Source of the DNA: Candidatus Zixiibacteriota bacterium
GTDB lineage: Bacteria; Zixibacteria; MSB-5A5; WJJR01
Assembly (NCBI GenBank): GCA_040752595.1
Contig: JBFMGX010000019.1
Location: forward strand, 1 to 32,880
Length of the DNA stretch: 32,880 nt
Reading direction: 5' to 3'
A program made the translations under genes and the position numbers. How positions within the stretch are numbered: position 1 is the first letter of the stretch; each line of letters begins with the position of its first letter. The notes beneath the pieces were generated by a model. That model was given only the letters and a program-made list of their open reading frames with translations. It ran no database searches and was not told where the DNA came from. Shown piece after piece: positions 401 through 26,408 of this stretch.

Positions 401-1978
401 ATGGATGACCGCGAGCACACAAGCGGGTGCGTATACCTGGTCGGCGCCGGGCCGGGAGAGCCGGAGTTGGTCACCGTCCGGGGCATGCGTCTTTTGCGAA
501 CCTGCGATGTGGTCGTTTATGACGATTTGGTTCCCGACGAGTTGATCGCGGCGCTGCCGGAGGGGGTCGAGCGGCACTATGTCGGGAAGAAGGCCGGCAA
601 ACACAAGTGCTCGCAGGAAGAGATCAATGGGCTTTTGATCCATCTGGCCCAGGCCGGCAAGGCAGTCGTCCGTCTCAAGGGCGGCGATCCCTTCATCTTT
701 GGGCGTGGCGGGGAGGAAGCGCAGGCACTCGCAGAACACGGCATTCCGTTTGAAATCGTGCCCGGAGTCACCTCCGGAATCGCCGCCCCGGCCTTTGCCG
801 GCATCCCATGCACGGACCGACGGAAGGCGTCGTCGGTGACATTTGTCACCGGGCATAAGTCCGTGGGGGAGGAGTCGGCGGACGTGCCGTGGGATTGGAT
901 CGGGCAGGCGCCGTCCGGGACGCTCGTCATCTATATGGGCGTGGGCGAGATTGAGAACATCGTGTCGCGGCTGCTGAATTCCGGCATGCCGCCCGATACA
1001 CCGGCGGCGGCGATCGAGCGTGGGACGTTCCCCACGCAACGTGTGATCTGCGCGGATTTGCGCGAGCTCCCGGAGCAGGTCCGGCAGCAAGGAATCCGTC
1101 CCCCCGCGGTCTTTGTCATCGGCGCGACCGTGAGTCTGCATGACACGCTCCATTGGATCAAGGATCGACCGCTCTTCGGCGTGCGCATCCTGGTGACCAG
1201 GCCGGCCGATCAGGCACTGCCGCTGTACCGATCGCTGCGCGGGCTCGGAGCGGAAGTACAGCCGTTCGCCACGATTGCGACGGTGACGGCGACGGATGAA
1301 GAGGGGTGGCGCGTCTTCGATCGCATCGACCGGGAACGGCGGTGGCTGCTCTTCACGAGTGAAAACGGCGTGCGCTATTTTCTCGAACACTGGCGGGCGC
1401 GACGCGGCGACATCCGTGCGTTGGCCGCGTACAAGATCGCCGCGATCGGGGGGCGCACGGTCGGTGCGCTGCAGGACAACATGCTGTCTGCCGACCTCGT
1501 GTTGGGACAAGCGAAGGAGGCGTCGCCCGCCGACCAACTGGCGTCCCTATTGGCTTCGTCGCCGGCCGTGGTCGTGCGCGTGCGCGGGAGCTCCAGCGAT
1601 TCCACGACGGAGGAGACACTCACGCGGAAGGGAATCGACGTCGTCCCGCTTACGGTCTACAAGACCCACGCGCTCGTCTGGCCCGATGAAGTGAAAGAGA
1701 AATTGACCGCCTATCCCCCGGACCTCGCGCTGTTCACGAGCGGGCCGGCCGTGACGGCTCTGTCGGCGAGTCTGTCGGACGACCAAAGGCGGCAGATTCT
1801 TGCCCGGACGGGAATCGTGACGATCGGGCCGGCGGCATCGAACGCGGTTCGCGCTCTGGGACTGTCGGTGGCGCTGGAAACCGGCACGCGGACGATTTCG
1901 GGAATGGTCCGGGAGTTGGTGGCGTTCTGGCAGGCGAACCGGACCGGGATTATCTCCAGTCTTCCTCCTCGCGCCTGA
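401..1978 (+). CDS. cobA-hemD: Fused uroporphyrinogen-III C-methyltransferase / uroporphyrinogen-III synthase
   Basis: This cytoplasmic bifunctional enzyme of tetrapyrrole synthesis has 525 residues. The N-terminal ~250 residues are a SAM-dependent uroporphyrinogen-III methyltransferase making precorrin-2. The near-N-terminal VGAGPGEPEL loop, RLKGGDPFIFGRGGEEA and VPGVTSG/AGIPCTDR motifs are all present. From about residue 264 (VRILVTRPADQA) a HemD domain follows, which cyclises hydroxymethylbilane to uroporphyrinogen III. Such CobA-HemD fusions are common outside Proteobacteria. The product feeds siroheme (sulfite reductase) and cobalamin. The siroheme link fits the nearby Qmo genes but is an inference. 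ATG 401 is the first start, and homology begins within 15 residues of it. The gene stands alone; the next gene is convergent. Confidence 0.95.
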   Translation: MDDREHTSGCVYLVGAGPGEPELVTVRGMRLLRTCDVVVYDDLVPDELIAALPEGVERHYVGKKAGKHKCSQEEINGLLIHLAQAGKAVVRLKGGDPFIFGRGGEEAQALAEHGIPFEIVPGVTSGIAAPAFAGIPCTDRRKASSVTFVTGHKSVGEESADVPWDWIGQAPSGTLVIYMGVGEIENIVSRLLNSGMPPDTPAAAIERGTFPTQRVICADLRELPEQVRQQGIRPPAVFVIGATVSLHDTLHWIKDRPLFGVRILVTRPADQALPLYRSLRGLGAEVQPFATIATVTATDEEGWRVFDRIDRERRWLLFTSENGVRYFLEHWRARRGDIRALAAYKIAAIGGRTVGALQDNMLSADLVLGQAKEASPADQLASLLASSPAVVVRVRGSSSDSTTEETLTRKGIDVVPLTVYKTHALVWPDEVKEKLTAYPPDLALFTSGPAVTALSASLSDDQRRQILARTGIVTIGPAASNAVRALGLSVALETGTRTISGMVRELVAFWQANRTGIISSLPPRA

Positions 1979-2081: not shown

Positions 2082-2639
2082 TCAGATGCCATCTCGTGGA
2101 TTCATCTCCGGCTCCAAGTCGACGCCGAGCCCGTCAGCGATACGATTGATGTACGCAAAGTACGCCGTCACAGCACATACGTCGTGAATGGCGCGGTCAT
2201 CGAGCCCGGCATCGCGCAGGTGCTGGATGTCCGCCTGGGCGATCGAAGCCGGTTCCCGCGTCAGCTTTTCGACGTACCGACAAATCGCCCGGTCTACGGT
2301 ACCCAGGGGCGCCGTTTTCCAATCCGATCTTAGTTTCTGTACGTCGTCGGTGGACACACCTGTGAGACGGAGATCCTCTCCGTGAGCTTCAATTCAGTAG
2401 TGGCATTGATTGACAGTCGAGACCACAGTGGCGATCATTTCACGTTGGCGCCTGGTCAGAGGAGACCGTCCATACATGACCGCGCGGTAGAGGTCCAAGG
2501 CCGCTGAGAGCACAGGAGCATTCTGCGATTGAATGTGGACAATCTGATACACTCGTCCGGCTCTCTGTATCGACGCATCGAAAATCGACTTCAATTGCCC
2601 GGTCGCTTCTTCGATTGGGATCTTCTTGATCCATGCCAT
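2082..2639 (-). CDS. AhpD-like peroxidase-related protein, probable selenoprotein (CxxU)
   Basis: The 186-codon frame is interrupted once, by TGA at 2394-2396 (codon 82), with the same frame open on both sides. The N-terminal part (from MAWIKKIPIEEATG) and the C-terminal part (AYINRIADGLGVDLEPE) are both typical of the carboxymuconolactone-decarboxylase/AhpD-like peroxidase-related family, whose usual length is about 180-190 residues. The TGA falls where the family has the second Cys of CxxC: Glu67-x11-Cys79-His-Tyr-U82-x3-His86. This reproduces the Glu...CxxC...His spacing of the AhpD active site. The likely role is thiol-dependent peroxide reduction, with selenocysteine as the attacking residue. 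Start ATG 2639 has GGAGG at 2645-2649, five bases upstream; an upstream extension to 2780 would overlap the divergent sigma factor and has no family similarity. Normal termination is also TGA (2082-2084). The alternative is a pseudogene with a single Cys-to-stop mutation. The selenocysteine machinery genes are not in this window. Confidence 0.8.
2363..2391 (-). promoter_or_regulatory. Candidate bacterial SECIS element
   Basis: Immediately downstream of the in-frame UGA, the mRNA forms a 6-bp perfect stem, ACGGAG (2383-2378) with CTCCGT (2372-2367). It closes a 5-nt loop AGGAT (2377-2373). A lower 3-bp helix (2391-2389 with 2365-2363) may extend it past an asymmetric internal loop. Sixteen bases separate UGA from the apical loop, and G is in loop position 2, both as described for bacterial SECIS elements bound by SelB. 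The loop begins AGG, like the one I recall for E. coli fdhF. The hairpin lies within coding sequence, as bacterial SECIS elements do. Confidence 0.65.
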
Positions 2640-2728
2640 ATGGTCCTCCGAGGGAATGTATGCTGCGTCATCGACTCTAATTTGGAGTGAACAATCGTGA
2701 ATTTGATTTGTTTTGCATCTAACAGACA

Positions 2729-3346
2729 ATGCCCGATGCCGGAGACCACAATCGCAATAGTCTTTCCGATCCACGCTCATGGGTGGATCGGCACGGCGAC
2801 ATTCTCTATCGCTTCGCCCTCGCTCGCGTCAAGGATCGCTCCGCCGCGGAGGATCTCGTCCAAGAGACGTTTCTGGCCGCGCTTCAGGCACGCAGCCAGT
2901 TCTCAGGTCTCTCCGACGAACAAACTTGGCTGATATCCATCCTCAAACACAAGGTCTTTGACTACTTCCGCCGGACGAGCAAAGAGGCAATCTCCGATAC
3001 CGATCTCGACTCGTGGACGGAAGACCCTGATTTTCGGACAGGTTCCCTTCTCCCCGGGTCCTGGAAGACGGGAAGACATCCGGCCGATTGGGCGGTCGAT
3101 CCTGACAGCACACTGGAAGCCAAGGAGTTGAGGGGGTTGCTGAAGAAGTGCCTGGATGACCTCCCGAGCTCGCTCTTCCGTGCTTTCACCCTTCGCGAGG
3201 TTGAGGAAATGCCCCCAGAAAAAGTCTGTAACGTTTTGGGGGTCTCTACGACCAACCTGCGAGTCATGATGTACCGGGCCCGCAAGAGTCTGAGACGGTG
3301 CCTGGAGATCCACTGGCTCGAGGAGAGACGAACACGAAAGCGGTGA
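2729..3346 (+). CDS. ECF-type RNA polymerase sigma factor
   Basis: This 205-residue sigma-70 family (extracytoplasmic-function) protein has region 2 at about residues 18-80 (ILYRFALARVKDRSAAEDLVQETF, shown here in two parts by its core AEDLVQETF and the WLISILKHKVFDYFR helix). A linker of roughly 50 residues is followed by region 4 at about 128-195 (LPSSLFRAFTLREVEEM; VLGVSTTNLRVMMYRARKSLR). It directs RNA polymerase to a stress regulon. Its stop lies 4 bp before a zinc-binding anti-sigma gene, the usual arrangement for a sigma/anti-sigma pair. The gene diverges from the AhpD-like selenoprotein gene across about 90 bp, which may hold a shared, autoregulated promoter. ATG 2729 lacks a clear Shine-Dalgarno, but no other ATG precedes region 2. 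Confidence 0.93.
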   Translation: MPDAGDHNRNSLSDPRSWVDRHGDILYRFALARVKDRSAAEDLVQETFLAALQARSQFSGLSDEQTWLISILKHKVFDYFRRTSKEAISDTDLDSWTEDPDFRTGSLLPGSWKTGRHPADWAVDPDSTLEAKELRGLLKKCLDDLPSSLFRAFTLREVEEMPPEKVCNVLGVSTTNLRVMMYRARKSLRRCLEIHWLEERRTRKR

Positions 3347-3350
3347 GGCG

Positions 3351-3665
3351 ATGAAACGAACCTTGGCAATCAAGCTGCGGGCGATGCGCCTGATGAGCCG
3401 CATGATGCCGAGCTGCGAGGACGTAACGCGTCTCGTCTCCGCCGGCATGGACCAGCACCTGTCGTTGGGTGACAGGCTCAAGGTCCGGACACACCTTCTG
3501 TTCTGTCAGTGGTGCTCGATGTTCGAAGAGCAGTTGCGACTCCTCCGCACACTGGTCCGCGAGGAGGCGGGGAGTCTTGATGGTGAGGACTTGGGAGACA
3601 CGGGTCGACTGGTACCGGGGGCGAAGGCCAAGCTCCAGGCGATCTTGATCCGTGAATGCGCGTGA
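3351..3665 (+). CDS. Zinc-binding anti-sigma factor (zf-HC2 / ZAS type)
   Basis: The product is a 104-residue soluble protein. It carries SCEDVTRLVS at about residues 21-30 and the ZAS motif HLLFCQWC (His-x3-Cys-x2-Cys) at about 49-56. It most likely binds the ECF sigma factor encoded 4 bp upstream, with which it should be translationally coupled, and releases it when the zinc/cysteine centre is oxidised or metal is displaced. No membrane segment is visible, so it would sense cytoplasmic thiol or peroxide stress rather than an envelope signal. Family assignment is by motif and position; the inducing signal is an inference. Confidence 0.85.
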   Translation: MKRTLAIKLRAMRLMSRMMPSCEDVTRLVSAGMDQHLSLGDRLKVRTHLLFCQWCSMFEEQLRLLRTLVREEAGSLDGEDLGDTGRLVPGAKAKLQAILIRECA

Positions 3666-4208: not shown

Positions 4209-4703
4209 ATGATCAAACGAACTGCCCTTGTGGCCGCCTTGCTGGCGTTCCCGCTTGCGATGTCCTCAGCGGCACACGCCGACCAGTCGAAGGCCGCGAA
4301 CTCGGTCGCCGTTTGCGGATGCGGCAAGGTGTTCACGCCCGACGACAAGACCGAGTACGTCACGGCGAACGGCAAGTACTACGCCTGTTGTTCGCACACA
4401 TGTCATGAGATGGCTGCGAAGGATCCTGCTGCCGCAGCCCGGATGGCAGAGGCCGCCACGGCAAAGCTCACAGGCACAGCGCGCGTCGATTTGGCAGTGG
4501 CGAACGTTGTTGCCGTCACCGACAAAGGCACCAAGGCAGTGTGCGGATGTGGGAAGGAGTTTGTGATCGACCCTTCGATTCCTTACCTCGAAGTCGACGG
4601 CGAGTCTTATGCCTGTTGCGGCAAGGCCTGCCACGAGATGGCGCTCAAGGACCCGAAAGCGGCGGCCAAAGCGACGCGGGAGAGACTCGCATCTCGCAAG
4701 TAG
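4209..4703 (+). CDS. Secreted cysteine-rich protein with two CGCGK/CC-x3-CHEM repeats
   Basis: This 164-residue protein has a cleavable signal peptide (about residues 1-24, ending AAHA). It carries two tandem copies of a ~55-residue domain. Copy one has CGCGK at 36-40, CC at 60-61 and CHEM at 65-68; copy two has CGCGK at 112-116, CC at 136-137 and CHEM at 141-144. Both are followed by AxKDPxAAA. The five cysteines and one histidine per copy suggest a metal site resembling the YHS/TRASH class of small metal-binding domains. It would act in the periplasm as a metal chaperone, store or thiol sensor. The start at 4209 has AAAGGAG eight bases upstream. It is the last gene of the ECF-sigma cluster. 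Function is not established. Confidence 0.8.
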   Translation: MIKRTALVAALLAFPLAMSSAAHADQSKAANSVAVCGCGKVFTPDDKTEYVTANGKYYACCSHTCHEMAAKDPAAAARMAEAATAKLTGTARVDLAVANVVAVTDKGTKAVCGCGKEFVIDPSIPYLEVDGESYACCGKACHEMALKDPKAAAKATRERLASRK

Positions 4704-5409: not shown

Positions 5410-7599
5410 TCAGGATCTCCTGGCGGACCACCAGCGACGCGGCGGTTCGCGATCCGCGGCGATGACGTCCCGGACGGGCACGATCAGCGGGCATTCGGTC
5501 TCCTGGGACAACTCGTGGGTCTTCTTCCAGATGCTCTCGATGGCCCGCGTGGCGTTGCGGTACATGTGCTCCTCGCCGATGCGATCGTAGAGGCCGGTTC
5601 GTCGCATGACATTCAGCACGAAGTCGTTGAGCCCGCTGAATGAGACGTCATATCCGGCGGAGCGCAACCGCTGTACCGTGACCGACAGCATCTGCTCGCC
5701 GGAGGCATCGAGCTCATTGATGCCATTGCCGACGATCAGCACATGCTTCAACTCCGGCATGTCCGCCACCTGCTCCAGAATCTGCTCTTCGAGGTAGTCG
5801 GCATTGGCGAAGACCAGCGACCCCTGGTAGCGGACGACGGCGATATGACGGCACTGGGCCAGTTGGAAGATTCTCCGGTTGCGGTAGGTCCCATCGGGAT
5901 GCAGCGCCAACAGGGCGATACGGGGTTTCATGTCGCGAATGAGATGGACCAAGAGTGTCAACCCCAGCCCGATCATGATGCCCCGGTCCAGATGGGGCGC
6001 GAACAGGAGTGTGGCGGCGAACGTGATGACGCCGATCACGCCATCGTATCGTTGCGCCTTCCATGCGTGCACGAAGGGGCGTGCCCGGATCAGGCTGAAG
6101 ACGGCCATCATAATGATGGCCGCCAGCGCCGGTTCGGGCAGGTAATAGAGCAACGGTGTCAGGAACAGCAGCGTCAGGACTACGACGCCGCTGGAGAAGA
6201 CATTGGAGAGTCCGGTGACGGCTCCGGCTTGCAGATTGACGGCCGAGCGTGAGAACGACCCGGACACCGCATAACTCTGTGCGGTCGAGCCGACGATGTT
6301 GGCCAATCCCTGGCCGATCAATTCCTGATTGGGGTCAAGTCGCTTCCCGGTCTTGATCGCCATCGCCTTACCGATCGAGATGGCCTCCATGAAACCCAGA
6401 ATGGAGATGATCATCGCCATCGGGAGCAGGTGCGGCACCGCGGCCCAGTCGATCCTGGGGACATGGATGCCCGGCAGGCCGGCGGGAATCTGGCCGACGA
6501 TGGCGCCGCCCCGCCGAAACGTCATCGCGGTCTCGTCGATGGGACCATGGCGGACTAAAAGCCGCCACACGCCAGCGTCGACGCCCGGGCCGATCGACGA
6601 GTCTCCCCTGAGATAGAACCGCATCCCTCCGGAAAAATCGCGAGCGGCCAGAAACAGATAGCCGCGTAAGTCCTGACGGCAGTCCTCGGCCAGTGCCTTC
6701 ATGTGGGACATGCCGACATGCAGCAGTGACTTTTCACCCTCCAGCGCCACCGCACCGGCCGACCCGACGCCTTCCGTCTCTTCCGCGCCCGAGATCTGCT
6801 GCCCCAGGTCGACGTTTGTCTGGGACTTGACGGCCAGGACCGCCGTGACGGCGTTGTACATCTGGATCTTCTTCGTCACCTCGACGGAACGGATGTCGGT
6901 CATGCTCGCCCGGTGGTCGTGGTGATACCCCGTCGCCCAGGCAATCACCGACGTGGCGACGGCGGCGAGCAGCACGGCCGGCAGCCGGGGGCTGATCCGC
7001 CGGAGCAGCATCATGACGGCGAATGCCAGCACCGCGAGAAAAACCGTCGGCCAATGCGTGTACGCCAGCGCCGCTTTGATGACCCGAATGACCGTCTGAT
7101 AGTGATGGGGAGCATCCTCCACGTACACGCCGAAGACCTTGGAGAGCTGGGAGGTGGCAATGATCAGCGCCGCCGCATTGGTGAATCCGCTGACGACAGG
7201 GTGAGACAGGAAATTGATCGCCATCCCAAGGCGCAACGCACCCAGTGCGAACTGGATGATGCCCACGAGGAGGGCGAGCATGATGGCGTACGTGATGAAG
7301 GTCTCACTGCCGACCGTGGCGAGAGGGGCCAGCGAGGCGGCCGTCATCAGGGACACGACGGCGACCGGGCCGGTCGCCAGTTGGGGGCTGGAGCCAAACA
7401 GGGCAGCCACCAGGGGCGGCAACAGAGCGGCGTAGAGCCCATAGTAGGCCGGGAGCCCGGCCAATTGGGCGTACGCCATCGACTGCGGGATGAGAACGAG
7501 AGCAACCGTGACACCCGCGATCAGGTCACTCCGCAGCGATGCGGAGGAGTACCCCTTGAACCAGCGGACGAAGGGGAAGGCGGTTTCGACGATCGGCAC
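5410..7599 (-). CDS. SulP-family anion transporter with STAS domain and extra soluble insert
   Basis: This 729-residue inner-membrane protein starts at GTG 7599 (GGGAG upstream). The N-terminal SulP signature (DLIAGVTVALVLIPQSMAYA, residues 25-44), many membrane spans, and a C-terminal STAS domain (about 560-685, with NGINELDASGEQML) identify the family. Its members carry sulfate, bicarbonate or other anions. It lies about 110 bp after qmoC in the same direction, so sulfate uptake for the APS reductase pathway is a fair guess. It is unusual in having about 140 residues (roughly 225-365) of soluble-looking sequence inside the transport domain; standard SulP proteins are about 550-600 residues. 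The substrate cannot be read from sequence. Confidence 0.93.
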   Translation of the reverse strand: MPIVETAFPFVRWFKGYSSASLRSDLIAGVTVALVLIPQSMAYAQLAGLPAYYGLYAALLPPLVAALFGSSPQLATGPVAVVSLMTAASLAPLATVGSETFITYAIMLALLVGIIQFALGALRLGMAINFLSHPVVSGFTNAAALIIATSQLSKVFGVYVEDAPHHYQTVIRVIKAALAYTHWPTVFLAVLAFAVMMLLRRISPRLPAVLLAAVATSVIAWATGYHHDHRASMTDIRSVEVTKKIQMYNAVTAVLAVKSQTNVDLGQQISGAEETEGVGSAGAVALEGEKSLLHVGMSHMKALAEDCRQDLRGYLFLAARDFSGGMRFYLRGDSSIGPGVDAGVWRLLVRHGPIDETAMTFRRGGAIVGQIPAGLPGIHVPRIDWAAVPHLLPMAMIISILGFMEAISIGKAMAIKTGKRLDPNQELIGQGLANIVGSTAQSYAVSGSFSRSAVNLQAGAVTGLSNVFSSGVVVLTLLFLTPLLYYLPEPALAAIIMMAVFSLIRARPFVHAWKAQRYDGVIGVITFAATLLFAPHLDRGIMIGLGLTLLVHLIRDMKPRIALLALHPDGTYRNRRIFQLAQCRHIAVVRYQGSLVFANADYLEEQILEQVADMPELKHVLIVGNGINELDASGEQMLSVTVQRLRSAGYDVSFSGLNDFVLNVMRRTGLYDRIGEEHMYRNATRAIESIWKKTHELSQETECPLIVPVRDVIAADREPPRRWWSARRS

Positions 7600-7708: not shown

Positions 7709-8887
7709 TCACCTCCGCCGGTCGAGGTATCCAAGCCGCCTTGCCTGCGCCAGCGCCAGCAAGCGATAGATCATGTGGGCGAACTTGGAATACGGCATAT
7801 ACCAGAGGAGGAAGAAGACGCAAACCAGGTGCGCGAAATAGCTCCCATAGGCAATCGTCGCGGTGCCGGCCCAGCGTGCCACCCAGGCGGCCATTCCGGT
7901 CGCCCCGGCCAGGAAGATGACATACAGGAACAGGTAGTCGGTGTAGCCGTTGGCGCCGACTTCGTCTTTCTTGCCCCACCGCCGGATGATCAACAGAGCG
8001 CCCCCGAGCGCCAGCGCCACCCCGCTGAGGGCGCCGAGAATCTTGATCGGGTTGGGAAGATTCAGCGGTAACTCAAAGAGCGGGCGGAGCACTTGCAACC
8101 CGATCTGCTCGAGGTAGTGCGGCGCGAAGATCGACACGAAGATCGCACCGGTCGTCACCATGGCGCCGAGGAAACCATAGAAGAGCAACAGGTGTCCCCA
8201 GGTGCGCGGCCTGTTGGTGTCACACTCCCGGAATTTTCGATGGGACAGCACTTCCGGGATTGTCTTGAGCAGACTGCCCACGAAGGACAATTCGTACTTC
8301 TCCCCCGGCCGTTGCATCCCCTTCCAGAACCGTCGGAACCCCACGGCGGCGAATATGAAGATCATGATGTTGCCGATGACGAAGAGGGCGTCGACATACT
8401 GGTGCGGCAGGAACAGATTGAAGTCGATGACGGCGGCGGTGCCGAAGAGGTAGCGGCCGTCGACGGATTGCGGCGCGAGCCACACAACGCAGGCCAGCAG
8501 GATGACTACGGGGACAAAAACGAGTACCGGCAGCGCCCGCGGAGTGGCCAAGGCCCGTCCCATGAACGAGGGGAACGAGAAGTGCTTGTAGGCATAGGCC
8601 CGGATGGCGGCGAGGACATCACCGGGCCGTGCCCCACGGGGGCAGTAGGTCGTGCAATCGTTGCATTGGTGACACAACCACACGTTCGGGTCGCGCACCA
8701 GCCGCTCGGACTGGCCCCATCCGGCCAACGCCATCTCTTTCCGGGGGAAGGGCGCCGATGGGCTCGACAGATTGCAGACACTGGAGCAGGTGCCGCATTG
8801 GAAGCACTTCTTCAGCGTGTTCCCGCCGAGTCGCTTCACGTCACGGATCAACGCGGGGTCAGGGGTGAGTGGCCGGGTTTCCGCCAT
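7709..8887 (-). CDS. qmoC: Quinone-interacting membrane-bound oxidoreductase subunit C
   Basis: The product is a 392-residue fusion of an HdrC-like iron-sulfur domain and an HdrE-like membrane domain. Two [4Fe-4S] motifs are visible: CFQCGTCSSVC at residues 28-38 and CHQCNDCTTYCP at about 72-83. About six membrane spans follow, with histidines suited to haem b and quinone exchange. In sulfate reducers QmoC anchors QmoAB and exchanges electrons with menaquinone. ATG 8887 is preferred over the GTG six bases upstream because GGAG is then correctly placed. It is third in qmoABC, separated from qmoB by a 269-bp spacer holding a palindromic repeat. Confidence 0.93.
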   Translation of the reverse strand: MAETRPLTPDPALIRDVKRLGGNTLKKCFQCGTCSSVCNLSSPSAPFPRKEMALAGWGQSERLVRDPNVWLCHQCNDCTTYCPRGARPGDVLAAIRAYAYKHFSFPSFMGRALATPRALPVLVFVPVVILLACVVWLAPQSVDGRYLFGTAAVIDFNLFLPHQYVDALFVIGNIMIFIFAAVGFRRFWKGMQRPGEKYELSFVGSLLKTIPEVLSHRKFRECDTNRPRTWGHLLLFYGFLGAMVTTGAIFVSIFAPHYLEQIGLQVLRPLFELPLNLPNPIKILGALSGVALALGGALLIIRRWGKKDEVGANGYTDYLFLYVIFLAGATGMAAWVARWAGTATIAYGSYFAHLVCVFFLLWYMPYSKFAHMIYRLLALAQARRLGYLDRRR

Positions 8888-9020
8888 TTGCACTCCACAG
8901 CTTGGTGGTGATCCTCCAAGGGCCTCTAACGAAATGACGAACGGTCGTCTTCGGGAGGGCGATCCGCCGAACCGGTTCGCCTGACCTAAGAACCTCTATC
9001 ATAATGAATGAGTGAAGAAC

Positions 9021-9114
9021 ACCCTCACCCGATCCGGCCTCCGGCCGGATCGACCTCTCCCGGTGGGAGAGGTTGTCTTTCCCTCTCCCCCTCCGGGAGA
9101 GAGTTGGGGCGAGG
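9021..9114 (+). repeat. REP-like 'CTCACCC...GATCCG' palindromic repeat, copy 2
   Basis: The repeat reads CCCTCACCCGATCCG, a GGCCTCCGGCC-type hairpin, then CTCTCCCGGTGGGAGAG and a final CTCTCCCCCTCCGGGAGAG hairpin ending GGGGCGAGG. It occupies most of the spacer between qmoB and qmoC. No gene is seen in 8888-9156. Confidence 0.8.
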
Positions 9115-9156
9115 ATATCTACCATTTCCGTTCATTCCGTTGGGGGCCGCAAGCGT

Positions 9157-11430
9157 CTACATGCCCTTGTAGGGATTGGGCCCGATCGTTTCGATCTTCT
9201 CCAAGAACTCATCGAGAATCGCGGGTAGCTGGTCGCAGTCCGACATCGAGACCTCGTTGAGCTGCACGCGTTCCTCTTCCAGAACCAGTTGTTTCAGCTT
9301 CTCGCGGACGTTGCCGACCCGGTAGTCGGCCAGCTCGCTGCCGCGCACGAAGTGGCACTGGTAGTCATCGCCCTTCTTGCAGCCCAAGAGCAAGACGCCG
9401 TCGAATCCGCCCGCCAGTGCATCATTCACCCAGATCGTGTTCATCGATCCGAGACAGCGCAGGGGAACGAACCGGATCATCGCGTTGTATTGCAGCCGCT
9501 TGATCCCCGCCATGTCGAGCGCGGGGAGGGCGTCGTTCTCGCAGATGAAACAGAGAATGCGTGGTTTCTCCTCGAACTCGTCCGGCACGTGGATCGACTT
9601 GATCATCTCCGACATCATGTTGACGTTATAGTTCTTGAAGGAGATGATACGCTCCGGACAGGAACCCATGCAGATGCCGCAGCGGCGGCAGCGTAGCGGG
9701 TTCGGCAGCGGTGTGCCCTTGTTGTCCTCATCGAGCGTGCCGAACGGACACTCTTCGGTGCAACGTTTGCACTGCGTGCAGCGCTGCATCAGGAACTCGG
9801 GATAGGTCTGATCTCCCGCGCGCGGGTGGACCGCCTCGCCGCGGGCGATCGCTTCCACCACCTGGATCGCCTTGAGGGCGGCCCCATCGGCGTCATTTCC
9901 CGCCGCGTCCAAGTCCATCGGGGCGCGCACGGCACCGGCGGCGTAGATGCCGGTGCGACGTGTCTCGTAGGGGAAGCAGATGAAGTGGGAATCGGGGAAA
10001 CCGTATTTCAACGTCGGTAGATCGGTCCCCTGACGGTAGGTCAGGTTGAGGATTCGAGCACCCTTTTCGGCGGACTCGGCTTCCTTCTTGCCATCGGCGG
10101 TCACGCCCTCGGCTGGCGCCACCGTCCCCGTTTCTCCTTCCGGGGCCGCTGTGGAGGCCGTCTCCGCAGCCCCGGCATCGCTGTCGGGTTCCACCTTCGT
10201 GGCGGGAACCATCCCGGTGGCGAGCACCACCAGATCGGCCTGGATCCGGATGTTCTCACCGAGAAGGGTCTCGCCGACGTCGAGACTGACACTGCCGTCG
10301 GGCTCTTTCACGACGGCGGCGAGTTCCCCCTTCGTGAGGAAGACGCCATCGTCGTCCTGAGCCCAGGCATAGAACCGCTCATACTGGGCCGGGGACCTGA
10401 GGTCCTTGTACACGATGAAGACGTTGGTCCCGGGGAGACGGTTCCGGATGTATTTCGCCTGCTTGAGCGAGACCCGGCAGCAGACCGCCGAGCAATACGG
10501 GAGGTGATCGGGGTCGCGGGAACCGGCACACTGGATGAACGCGACGCTGGCCGGGCTCTTTCCGTCGGAAGGTCGTCTGATCTCCCCGGATGCCATCATC
10601 GCCTCAAAGTCGACGTTGGTAATGACGTCCGGCGAGACTCCGAATCCCCAGCGCGTGAGTTTCTCGCGATCATACGGTTTCCATCCCGCCGCCAGGATGA
10701 TGGCGCCGACCCGGAGGTGCGTCGATCGGCTACCATTGCGCAAATCCACTTCGAATTGCCCGGGCTGCCCGGATGTCTTTTCGACCACCGTCGACTTGTG
10801 CACGGTGATTTTCGGGTCGGACTCGACCGCGCGCACGAGCGCATCCCAGCCGGGATCCTCAAGGTCCTGATAGGGTGGCTTTTTCGGGAAGACCTTGACG
10901 AACTTCCGAGCCCACCCGCCCAACTCCGCCTCTTTTTCCACGAGAGTGACATTGTACCCGGCGGCGGCGGCGGATTTGGCTGCGGTCATCCCGGTGGTGC
11001 CGCCGCCGATCACCATGATGTCCTTGCTGGTCTCGGCAATGAACGGCTCCGGCGGCTGGCTGGTTCTGACCTTGGCCAATCCCATCCGGATGGCATCTTC
11101 GGCCAGCATCTGGGTGTCTTCATCCTGCGGGGGATGACACCATACGACCCGCTCCCGCAGGCAGACGCGGTCAACGAGAACATCGCGGCCGAAGTTGAAC
11201 TCCTCGGGGAAGACCCGCTCGGAACAGGCGGCGACGACGGCGCGATTCAACTGCCCCTCGGCCATCGCCGCGTGGATCATGTCCTGCCCCGCCGGGCTGC
11301 ACAGGGCGCCATGCGTCTGACAGACACCGACCTGCTTGTCGCCCTTGGCGATTTCGACCAGCTTGGCTAGGTCGATGGATTTGGCGATCTCGCATCCTTC
11401 ACAGATGAACGTGCCGATCTTGATCTCCAT
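9157..11430 (-). CDS. qmoB: Quinone-interacting membrane-bound oxidoreductase subunit B (HdrA-MvhD fusion)
   Basis: The product is a 757-residue cytoplasmic flavoprotein. The N-terminal domain has Cys pairs (FICEGCE at 9-14). An FAD-binding HdrA core begins at IGGGTTGMTAA (about 141-151) and includes the HdrA cluster motif CAGSR (301-305) with YCSAVCC (312-318). Two ferredoxin clusters follow (CTQCKRCTEECP about 551-562; CRRCGICMGSCP about 581-592). The C-terminal ~130 residues are MvhD-like (ILCFICENDA; GCKKGDDYQCHF). With QmoA it links QmoC to APS reductase. Residues about 415-458 are a low-complexity Ala/Glu/Gly/Thr insert. It starts 4 bp after the qmoA stop. Confidence 0.94.
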   Translation of the reverse strand: MEIKIGTFICEGCEIAKSIDLAKLVEIAKGDKQVGVCQTHGALCSPAGQDMIHAAMAEGQLNRAVVAACSERVFPEEFNFGRDVLVDRVCLRERVVWCHPPQDEDTQMLAEDAIRMGLAKVRTSQPPEPFIAETSKDIMVIGGGTTGMTAAKSAAAAGYNVTLVEKEAELGGWARKFVKVFPKKPPYQDLEDPGWDALVRAVESDPKITVHKSTVVEKTSGQPGQFEVDLRNGSRSTHLRVGAIILAAGWKPYDREKLTRWGFGVSPDVITNVDFEAMMASGEIRRPSDGKSPASVAFIQCAGSRDPDHLPYCSAVCCRVSLKQAKYIRNRLPGTNVFIVYKDLRSPAQYERFYAWAQDDDGVFLTKGELAAVVKEPDGSVSLDVGETLLGENIRIQADLVVLATGMVPATKVEPDSDAGAAETASTAAPEGETGTVAPAEGVTADGKKEAESAEKGARILNLTYRQGTDLPTLKYGFPDSHFICFPYETRRTGIYAAGAVRAPMDLDAAGNDADGAALKAIQVVEAIARGEAVHPRAGDQTYPEFLMQRCTQCKRCTEECPFGTLDEDNKGTPLPNPLRCRRCGICMGSCPERIISFKNYNVNMMSEMIKSIHVPDEFEEKPRILCFICENDALPALDMAGIKRLQYNAMIRFVPLRCLGSMNTIWVNDALAGGFDGVLLLGCKKGDDYQCHFVRGSELADYRVGNVREKLKQLVLEEERVQLNEVSMSDCDQLPAILDEFLEKIETIGPNPYKGM

Positions 11431-11434
11431 CGTC

Positions 11435-12730
11435 CTATCTCCCCGTGGCTGCGATCAACGCCGTCATGGCCGCGCCGGTGGCATCCCGGACCGAAGTGGC
11501 CACATCCTGCGGGCGGACCGCGACTCCGGCACCGATGAGGCCCGCATTCTGTCCCGACAGCAGGAAACCGTAGTCATCGAGCGCCGCGCTCACCGGTAGC
11601 GGGTCGACTTTGGTATTCGGCACCATGCCGGTCGCCAGGACCGCCATGTCGACTTCGGATGAGGTCAATTCCCCGGTCAGGGTGTTCTCCGCTTCCAGAA
11701 TCAGATTCCGACTCCCCGCAACTTCCGTGATCCGACCGACCTTGCCGCGATGGAAGAAGATCTTCCCGTCGGCCTTGACGTCGGTGTAGAAGTCCTCCAT
11801 CCGTCCGGGCGCGCGGACGTCGATGTAGAAGACGTGAATCTCCGCCTCGGGGTATTGCGCGCGGACGTATGTGGCCTGCTTCAGCGTGGCCAGACAGCAA
11901 ATCGAGGAGCAGTACGGGAGATGCTTGTCATCCCGCGACCCGGCACACTGGACGAAGCCGATCTTGCGAATCTCCCCCTTGTCCGAGAGCCGGACAATCC
12001 GTCCGGCGGTCGGGCCGGTCGGCGACGCCAGCCGCTCCATGATCACATTGGTGACGACGTTCGGGAAACGACCGAACCCGAGATTGTCGAGCTTCGACGC
12101 ATCGTAGGGACGCCACCCGGTCGCCCAGATGATCGCGGCGACATGGGCCGTGACGGTGCGGGGTGGCATGTCGAGTTCGATGGCATCATACGGGCAGGCC
12201 TCGACGCACTTTTTCATCCGCTCGTCGGCGGCATATCGGGGGTCGACGACGTAGCGGAAGGGGAAGGCCATCAGGTGGGGGAGATAGATCGCCTTGGTCT
12301 TGTCCAACCCGTAATTGAACGGGTTGTCGCGTTCGATTTCGCACACGTTCGCACACTCGCCGCAGGCCGTGCATCTGGAGTTGACGAACCGTGGATTCAT
12401 CCGGATCGGCACCGTCCACGCACCGGGCGCGCCCGTCACGCTTGTGACCTCGGCCAGGGTCAACACCCGCACATTGGGGTTGGCCCGGATGCGACGGAGA
12501 TTGATCTCCAGGCCGCACGTCGGCGGGCAGCGCTTGGGAAAGTACTGGTGCGAGGCGGCCACCCGGCCGCCGATGGTTGGTTCGCGCTCGACCAGGATGA
12601 CCTTCTTGCCGACCTCCGCCGCCTCGATGGCGGCCGTCATCCCGGCGATCCCGGCCCCGACCACCAGCAGATCGGCCGTGATCGGACCGCCGGAATCGTG
12701 ACCAGTTCCGACAGAGGTGCTCTCGCTCAT
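11435..12730 (-). CDS. qmoA: Quinone-interacting membrane-bound oxidoreductase subunit A (HdrA-like flavoprotein)
   Basis: The 431-residue protein has an FAD-binding GAGIAGMTAA motif at about residues 25-34. A ferredoxin-type cluster CTACGECANVC lies at about 120-130, and CVEACP at about 175-180. The HdrA-type cluster motif is CAGSR (about 262) with YCSSICC (about 273-279). It is the short HdrA paralogue of the Qmo complex. ATG 12730 is preferred (GGAG six bases upstream) over an in-frame GTG 12 bases earlier. It opens the qmoABC-sulP-ferritin-like cluster and overlaps nothing. A weak promoter-like TTGACT, reading on the minus strand at about 12807-12812, lies upstream but lacks a convincing -10. 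Confidence 0.94.
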   Translation of the reverse strand: MSESTSVGTGHDSGGPITADLLVVGAGIAGMTAAIEAAEVGKKVILVEREPTIGGRVAASHQYFPKRCPPTCGLEINLRRIRANPNVRVLTLAEVTSVTGAPGAWTVPIRMNPRFVNSRCTACGECANVCEIERDNPFNYGLDKTKAIYLPHLMAFPFRYVVDPRYAADERMKKCVEACPYDAIELDMPPRTVTAHVAAIIWATGWRPYDASKLDNLGFGRFPNVVTNVIMERLASPTGPTAGRIVRLSDKGEIRKIGFVQCAGSRDDKHLPYCSSICCLATLKQATYVRAQYPEAEIHVFYIDVRAPGRMEDFYTDVKADGKIFFHRGKVGRITEVAGSRNLILEAENTLTGELTSSEVDMAVLATGMVPNTKVDPLPVSAALDDYGFLLSGQNAGLIGAGVAVRPQDVATSVRDATGAAMTALIAATGR

Positions 12731-13221
12731 TTCAAACTCCACGTGTGTCAGGAATCACCGGCGGTCAGCGCCGGCCAACAGAAACATGCACAAACCACAA
12801 TTGATGGAATCGGCGCAAAAGTCAAAGATAATTGTGATCTTCTTCACGGACTGTGCGGGAATTTGCCACCAGATTCGGCTTCGTACTTTCTTCCTGAGCA
12901 GAGGCCGTGACGCGGCACTTCTTGGGGCGGTCGCATGAGTTCCGCGCGGCCCGTCACAACCGTTTATTGGTGAACGAATAACGGCCGTAGCAACGGGACG
13001 GTGTCGACATTCGCCGTGCCAGAGCATTCGTGAATTCCCAGAGAAGGCAAGGTTGCTTCGGGGGGAATTTCACAAAATCCTTGACAATTTCTGTGGGTTT
13101 CCCGTGGCCGTTCTCAAGGGAGAGTGGAGCGATCGCGGCGACGGGGCCGCTGAGGCGGACCTCCTCGCAACGACTGTCAGTCTGTCCAATACTCGGGCTT
13201 CCAATAGAAACAACGAAGAAC
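12731..13221. other. Non-coding spacer upstream of qmoA
   Basis: No supported gene is seen. The open frames here have no recognisable protein and no good ribosome site. The stretch next to qmoA holds a small GC hairpin (CCGGCG/CGCCGG, about 12756-12772) and should contain the qmo promoter. It leads into a repeat-rich region. Confidence 0.5.
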
Positions 13222-13365
13222 GCCCTCACCCCTTCGACTTCCTTCGACTCCGCTCAGGGCAAGTCGCTCAGGGCAGGCCGATCCACCTACGGCGGATCGA
13301 CCTCTCCCGGAGGGAGAGGTTAGTCTTCCCCCCTCTCCCTTTCAGGGAGAGGGCTGGGGTGAGGG
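13222..13365 (+). repeat. REP-like palindromic repeat, copy 3, with internal insertion
   Basis: This is the longest copy. CCCTCACC is followed by an inserted stretch containing two GCTCAGGGCA(A/G) units. Then come the CGATCC/GGATCG hairpin, CTCTCCCGGAGGGAGAG, and a closing CCCTCTCCCTTTCAGGGAGAGGG hairpin (described here in its two arms) ending GGGGTGAGGG. From 13366 to 13591 I see only short hairpins (for example CTCCC/GGGAG at about 13457-13471) and no gene. Confidence 0.75.
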
Positions 13366-18555: not shown

Positions 18556-18596
18556 CGGCTCTTGGGCTTCTCACAGAATAAACGCGTGGAGGAGCT

Positions 18597-18651
18597 CCCT
18601 CACCCGATCCGTCCTCGGGACGGATCGACCTCTCCCGGAGGGGGAGGTTAT
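18597..18651 (+). repeat. REP-like 'CTCACCC...GATCCG' palindromic repeat, copy 4 (short)
   Basis: CCCTCACCCGATCCG is followed by a TCCTCGGGA hairpin, CGGATCGACC and CTCTCCCGGAGGGGGAG. It lacks the second CTCTCC hairpin seen in copies 1-3. It lies 41 bp after the transketolase stop. Confidence 0.75.
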
Positions 18652-18687
18652 CAGTTTCACTCTTCATTTGTCACATCGGGTGCCATG

Positions 18688-26255: not shown

Positions 26256-26330
26256 GTTCCCTCCCTGTGTTGGATTCTGACCGACTGTCATCCTATAGCG
26301 CTTCTGACAGGACAAATGGGTAGGAGATTT

Positions 26331-26408
26331 CCCTCACCCGATCCGTCCTTCGGACGGATCGTCCTCTCCTCCTCGACCCCGCTCGGGGCAAGCCGGAGGG
26401 AGAGGTTA
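26331..26408 (+). repeat. REP-like 'CTCACCC...GATCCG' palindromic repeat, copy 5
   Basis: CCCTCACCCGATCCGTCC with CGGACGGATC forms the first hairpin. Then CCTCTCC and GGAGGGAGAGG enclose an inserted TCGACCCCGCTCGGGGCAAG stretch. It is located between mscL and the DUF3078-type gene. Confidence 0.75.

Follow-up and report, generated by a model that had tools for sequence, protein, structure and literature searches.

An AhpD-like gene of a Zixibacteriota genome very probably encodes a selenoprotein with selenocysteine at its CxxC site

The window analysed here, a stretch of 32,880 nucleotides from a genome of the phylum Zixibacteriota, carries an AhpD-like gene whose frame is interrupted by one TGA and which very probably encodes a selenoprotein with selenocysteine (Sec) at residue 82. 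We computed the position and conservation of the UGA, the Sec machinery of the genome, a SECIS-type hairpin with its covariation, family membership and active-site spacing, and from these we infer that Sec is inserted. An initial annotation had read the gene as a CxxU selenoprotein, and the TGA in homologues, the sel genes and the hairpin lend that reading strong support. Routine annotation would see two fragments or a pseudogene at this place, which the reading as a selenoprotein corrects. Sec at this AhpD site appears, at the level of sequence, to be widespread across a phylum that has received little study (25 of the 132 genomes searched), and the family offers a tidy case for Sec/Cys exchange, the SECIS hairpin being carried by Sec members and missing in Cys members. 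The less expected feature is the linkage of an ECF/anti-sigma pair to the TGA-bearing gene, seen in the window and in two further genomes. The features concerned are listed in Table 1.

Table 1. Features of the AhpD-like locus and its neighbours in the window
Feature	Positions	Strand	Basis
AhpD-like / peroxidase-related selenoprotein gene (probable)	2082..2639	-	Translation with TGA as U, TIGR01926, CMD PF02627, 26 TGA homologues
Sec codon UGA (probable), at the second Cys position of CxxC (CHYU)	2394..2396	-	Frame translation and homologue alignment
Candidate bacterial SECIS hairpin, ACGGAGA-[GGA]-UCUCCGU	2367..2383	-	Model constraints (PMC13188914)
Ribosome-binding-site-like GGAGG	2645..2649	-	5 nt before the ATG at 2639; read from the sequence
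ECF sigma factor gene, possible regulator	2729..3346	+	Pfam Sigma70_r2 and Sigma70_r4_2
Zinc-finger anti-sigma-like protein, HxxxCxxC (HLLFCQWC)	3351..3665	+	Pfam zf-HC2 PF13490; motif from translation

Reading frame and codon 82 across homologues

Translation of the minus strand from the ATG at 2639 to 2085 gives 185 amino acids, with the TGA at codon 82 (2396-2394) as the sole internal stop and another TGA (2084-2082) as terminator. The initial annotation had joined two segments of the same frame, separated by a single TGA, into a full-length AhpD-like protein, and both translation and family search bear this out: the read-through product matches NCBIfam TIGR01926 at 138.3 bits (E 2e-40; model positions 2-177 of 178), exceeding the curated cut-off of 81.8 bits, and Pfam CMD (PF02627) at 55 bits. 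Its coordinates were also right, the span 2082-2639 taking in the stop codon. Read with Sec, the product has the motif C79-H-Y-U82-I-E-A-H86.

A homologue search of 132 genomes of the window's phylum returned matches in 37. Among the 32 genes extracted and aligned, a set that leaves out about seven weaker or partial matches, codon 82 is TGA in 26 and TGT or TGC in the other six. The TGA genes come from 25 genomes of Zixibacteriota, the window's included, and one of Marinimicrobia (L014), the single locus on which occurrence outside the phylum is based. The nearest homologue found, one gene with the handles L013 and L018, comes from a Candidatus Zixiibacteriota bacterium, is 68% identical and has TGA at codon 82; the Marinimicrobia gene is 45% identical and likewise has TGA, and a Marinicella gene (L015) is 28% identical and has TGT. 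The AhpD-like gene is patchily distributed, since both congeners of the window's organism lack it. The genome with the closest homologue, which belongs to the same family as the window's, has a second TGA-bearing AhpD-like match (G131:C511:11257-11742).

The pattern by which a bacterial selenoprotein is recognised, an in-frame UGA at a conserved redox Cys for which other homologues carry Cys, is therefore present in this family. The initial annotation had proposed looking for U or Cys at residue 82 and for TGA at the same site in close relatives; homologues show just these two residues, and the TGA recurs in the closest homologue and 24 others. It had also argued that a TGA would hardly fall on the CxxC residue by chance, which the recurrence of this codon and selection on the part downstream reinforce. 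Between the window gene and L018, pN is 0.24 and pS 0.66 over codons 83-181, downstream of the TGA, and 0.16 and 0.75 over codons 1-81; synonymous change is near saturation, so these values show constraint and not a precise rate. The substitution pattern indicates purifying selection on the part 3' of the TGA. A decayed downstream half in relatives had been named beforehand as evidence against a selenoprotein, and the half is instead conserved.

A single in-frame stop in an otherwise intact gene resembles a recent nonsense mutation, and the TGA could accordingly mark a pseudogene, or a sequencing error, in a former CxxC gene. This is very improbable: the reading is refuted by 26 homologues, drawn from two phyla, that all carry TGA at this codon, and by the conservation of the half downstream; it also leaves unexplained a hairpin that accompanies the TGA genes and is missing from the Cys genes, as well as the full Sec machinery of the genome. 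Bacterial decoding of UGA competes with termination, which speaks for another reading, in which the codon acts as a selenium-dependent switch and an 81-aa product matters when selenium is short. We give such regulated truncation a similarly slight chance, because the 81-aa form would end before U82 and H86 and lose the entire C-terminal half, the very part under purifying selection, and the analysis gives no hint of a function for this form. Reassignment of TGA (e.g., to Trp) or ordinary suppression would likewise open the frame but is scarcely credible, as TGA ends other genes of the window (401-1978, 2729-3346, 3351-3665) and the AhpD-like gene itself, homologues without TGA have Cys and never Trp at residue 82, and the genome encodes a tRNA-Sec with a UCA anticodon.

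In a maximum-likelihood tree with column 82 masked, the window gene and L018 group with L014 (support 100/98). The Sec and Cys labels are clustered on this tree, with two label changes needed, and may go back to a single origin, the direction of change being unreadable because the root is arbitrary.

Selenocysteine machinery and the SECIS hairpin

The window's genome contains selA (466 bits, over the cut-off) and, 65 bp upstream of this match, a tRNA-Sec (RF01852, 70.7 bits; gathering 47); ARAGORN reports a tRNA-SeC with anticodon UCA (tca) in the same genome. An ORF for a SelB-type elongation factor, recognised from its translation only, adjoins selA and the tRNA-Sec (L016 4303-6195), and selD lies at G000:C34:22644-23567 with one in-frame TGA. 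The complete set expected of a bacterium with selenoproteins, selA, selB, selC (tRNA-Sec) and selD, is thus found, as the initial annotation had suggested checking, with selB identified by translation. The selD gene itself probably encodes a selenoprotein, and the same applies to most selD matches in the phylum.

Among the 25 TGA-bearing genomes of the phylum, selA is seen in 23 (some matches partial); the remaining two, G131 (88% complete) and G056 (85% complete), give no selA match, and both have selD with a TGA. The Marinimicrobia genome, with the TGA form, has a partial selA, and no selA match was obtained in the genome of Marinicella, whose AhpD-like gene is of the Cys form. Co-occurrence with selA is by itself weak evidence, because 119 of the 132 genomes of the phylum have this gene, and four Cys-form genomes have it in full. 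In a genome of the same genus as the window's (G002, completeness given as 100%), selD contains a TGA and selA gave no match.

The published model of the bacterial SECIS element sets a loop of 3-9 nt with G in the first two loop positions, a stem of 4-16 bp, a loop 16-37 nt after the UGA and a minimum free energy <= -7.5 kcal/mol (PMC13188914). The hairpin in the window falls within every one of these bounds, having 7 bp, a 3-nt GGA loop that begins with GG, a distance of 17 nt from UGA to loop and an energy of -8.4 kcal/mol. For the family, the search was set from the published constraints before the classes were compared, and the energy limit was not required. A hairpin of the bacterial SECIS type was found in 26/26 TGA genes (mean stem energy -8.4 kcal/mol), whereas the six Cys genes are essentially without one (mean -0.15, best -0.7 kcal/mol). 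Scored alone, about seven of the family hairpins miss the -7.5 kcal/mol limit (e.g., L014 at -5.4 and L038 at -4.9), and in L038 and L041 the scored hairpin is absent from the fold of the whole segment.

When the codons of the window gene were resampled, 7% of the versions were as good, so its hairpin is only moderately better than these; the corresponding fraction is <= 0.1 in 23 of the 26 TGA genes. No other codon position in the window gene has an equal hairpin, and in this positional control the family mean is 2%. Dinucleotide-shuffle folding of the SECIS region of the window gave a free-energy z-score near zero, and hence no signal; the codon-resampled, positional and covariation tests are more informative than this one. 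Covariation was assessed in a subset of 19 sequences with 20-nt spacing and a GUU loop. In these sequences the 7-bp stem is paired in every cell, with both sides changed in 14 cells; slid controls are 43-57% paired and 0/500 shuffles were as good, values to be read for a subset picked by loop sequence, with related members and shuffles that ignore kinship. Within it, the stem appears from the alignment to couple residues 88 and 91: Asn or Asp88 goes with His91 and Thr, Ser or Ala88 with Arg91, the pattern that a stem constraint on both codons would produce, L024 (Asn-Arg) being the exception. The hairpin of the window gene stands outside this subset, and the case for it is built on how well it fits the model, on the positional control and on a near-identical stem in L018.

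Active site and gene neighbourhood

In a 28-member alignment, E67, C79, Y81, C/U82 and H86 show little or no variation. The proton relay of PA0269 consists of E36, C48, Y50, C51 and H55, corresponding to E118, C130, H132, C133 and H137 of M. tuberculosis AhpD (PMC3141380), and the spacing E67-C79-Y81-U82-H86 equals that of PA0269, as expected of an AhpD relay. The placing of the TGA at the second Cys of CxxC, with Glu67, Cys79 and His86 at AhpD spacing, as first proposed from the DNA, hence agrees with a described relay. An AlphaFold model, for which the window protein and three homologues were the input and Sec was modelled as Cys, has a mean pLDDT of 75.9, with values >90 over most of residues 61-160 and <50 at both ends. 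The predicted fold matches 3c1l, 2pfx, 6k40, 2oyo and 2prr (TM about 0.73-0.80), in agreement with a sequence search that gives the same structures (E 1e-15 to 6e-25).

These features suggest that the protein is a Sec-containing AhpD-like (TIGR01926/COG2128) thiol-type peroxidase or disulfide reductase. In the mechanism we propose, SelB and tRNA-Sec(UCA), directed by the hairpin just downstream, would decode UGA codon 82 as Sec, yielding a predicted all-helical protein with its CxxU redox centre (C79/U82) set within the relay E67-C79-Y81-U82-H86. This relay would hold the U82 selenol deprotonated, and the selenolate, or possibly the partner thiol, would attack a hydroperoxide (or a disulfide), after which C79 and U82 would close into a selenenylsulfide that a thiol/NAD(P)H system would reduce. 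The adjacent ECF sigma factor may control the gene.

The ECF gene is divergent from the AhpD-like gene, with 89 bp between the start codons, and the zf-HC2 gene lies 4 bp downstream of it. At two other loci, L042 and L044, an ECF gene (48-49% identity to that of the window) and then a zf-HC2-like gene come directly downstream of a TGA-bearing gene, all on one strand, and zf-HC2-like homologues also stand beside the ECF genes of L052 and L053. On the tree, L042 and L044 are sisters distant from the window gene, so that the link to the ECF factor is either old or was made twice. The association is not obligatory, because ECF homologues occur without a neighbouring AhpD-like gene, as at L053. In G131, the nearest TGA-bearing relative, the AhpD-like gene begins 125 bp from a contig end, and an ECF homologue is near the end of another contig. 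Inspection by eye of the regions preceding the window gene, the TGA-bearing genes of L042 and L044 and the ECF genes at L052 and L053 revealed no shared ECF promoter motif. In six other relatives, the AhpD-like gene is preceded by a flavodiiron-type gene (called in one representative by Pfam, ODP and flavodoxin, and in the rest by BLAST clustering), which fits a role in oxygen/peroxide defence.

It is possible, if somewhat doubtful, that a dedicated redox switch, formed by the ECF sigma factor and the zinc-binding (HxxxCxxC) anti-sigma protein, has the Sec-containing AhpD as its output and is conserved in several lineages of the phylum either as a divergent pair or as an AhpD-ECF-anti-sigma operon. 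If true, a selenoperoxidase regulon would be under the control of an ECF factor, and the recurring ECF/anti-sigma neighbour makes this a testable regulatory hypothesis.

Elsewhere in the window, a predicted secreted-looking protein (4209-4703) has two CGCGK...CCxxxCH repeats and no Pfam match. ORFs resembling, by eye, QmoC, QmoB and QmoA or heterodisulfide-reductase-like subunits (7709-12742) adjoin a SulP-type transporter ORF (5410-7599, by eye). Dispersed palindromic repeats that share the core CCCTCACCCGATCCG...CGGATCGACCTCTCC occur at 8984-9083, 13293-13330, 18559-18658 and 26293-26369 and may represent a mobile element or a structural one.

Comparison with known systems

CMD/AhpD-type genes adjoining ECF41 sigma factor genes, sometimes divergently, have already been described (PMC3426412). 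ECF41 factors carry a regulatory domain fused at the C-terminus and lack a linked anti-sigma gene, whereas the ECF protein of the window matches Pfam sigma regions 2 and 4 only and its gene is followed by a zf-HC2 gene; ECF41 was therefore rejected as a precedent for it. The initial view that linkage to an ECF factor was undescribed thus stands in part: such genes beside ECF41 were known, but the factor here is not ECF41-like, and no report of a Sec-containing AhpD linked to an ECF/anti-sigma pair was found in the literature searched, whose incomplete coverage leaves novelty unproven.

Among proteins with an AhpD domain, AhpD_rel_CFYUT (NF041238) also has Sec in CxxU but is longer (357 positions), and the window protein, at 68 bits against a cut-off of 175, is not a member. 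The solved peroxidase-related AhpD proteins 3c1l (Mesorhizobium mlr4105), 2pfx, 6k40 (D. radiodurans AhpD), 2oyo and 2prr share its fold; the Sec form was not found among these five, and in the alignments 2pfx and 3c1l have Cys where the window protein has Sec.

The window gene belongs to a selenoprotein family that is already described, and its kind is not new. The GOS study of 2008 distinguished AhpD-like 1 (COG2128, CxxU, 299 sequences) and AhpD-like 2 (PMC2398784), and a table in a 2026 review (PMC13188914) gives 'AhpD-like protein, TIGR01926, CxxU' with reference to the Sargasso Sea selenoproteome. The precedent invoked in the initial annotation accordingly exists and is closer than stated there, since TIGR01926 with CxxU is itself listed. 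The window gene and the TIGR01926/COG2128 selenoproteins are alike in family, in a CxxU motif with Sec as the second Cys and in a SECIS-type hairpin downstream. In contrast to the AhpD-like selenoproteins known from ocean metagenomes, the window gene is placed on a 32.9-kb contig, in a genome with all sel genes, and with an ECF/anti-sigma pair adjoining it.
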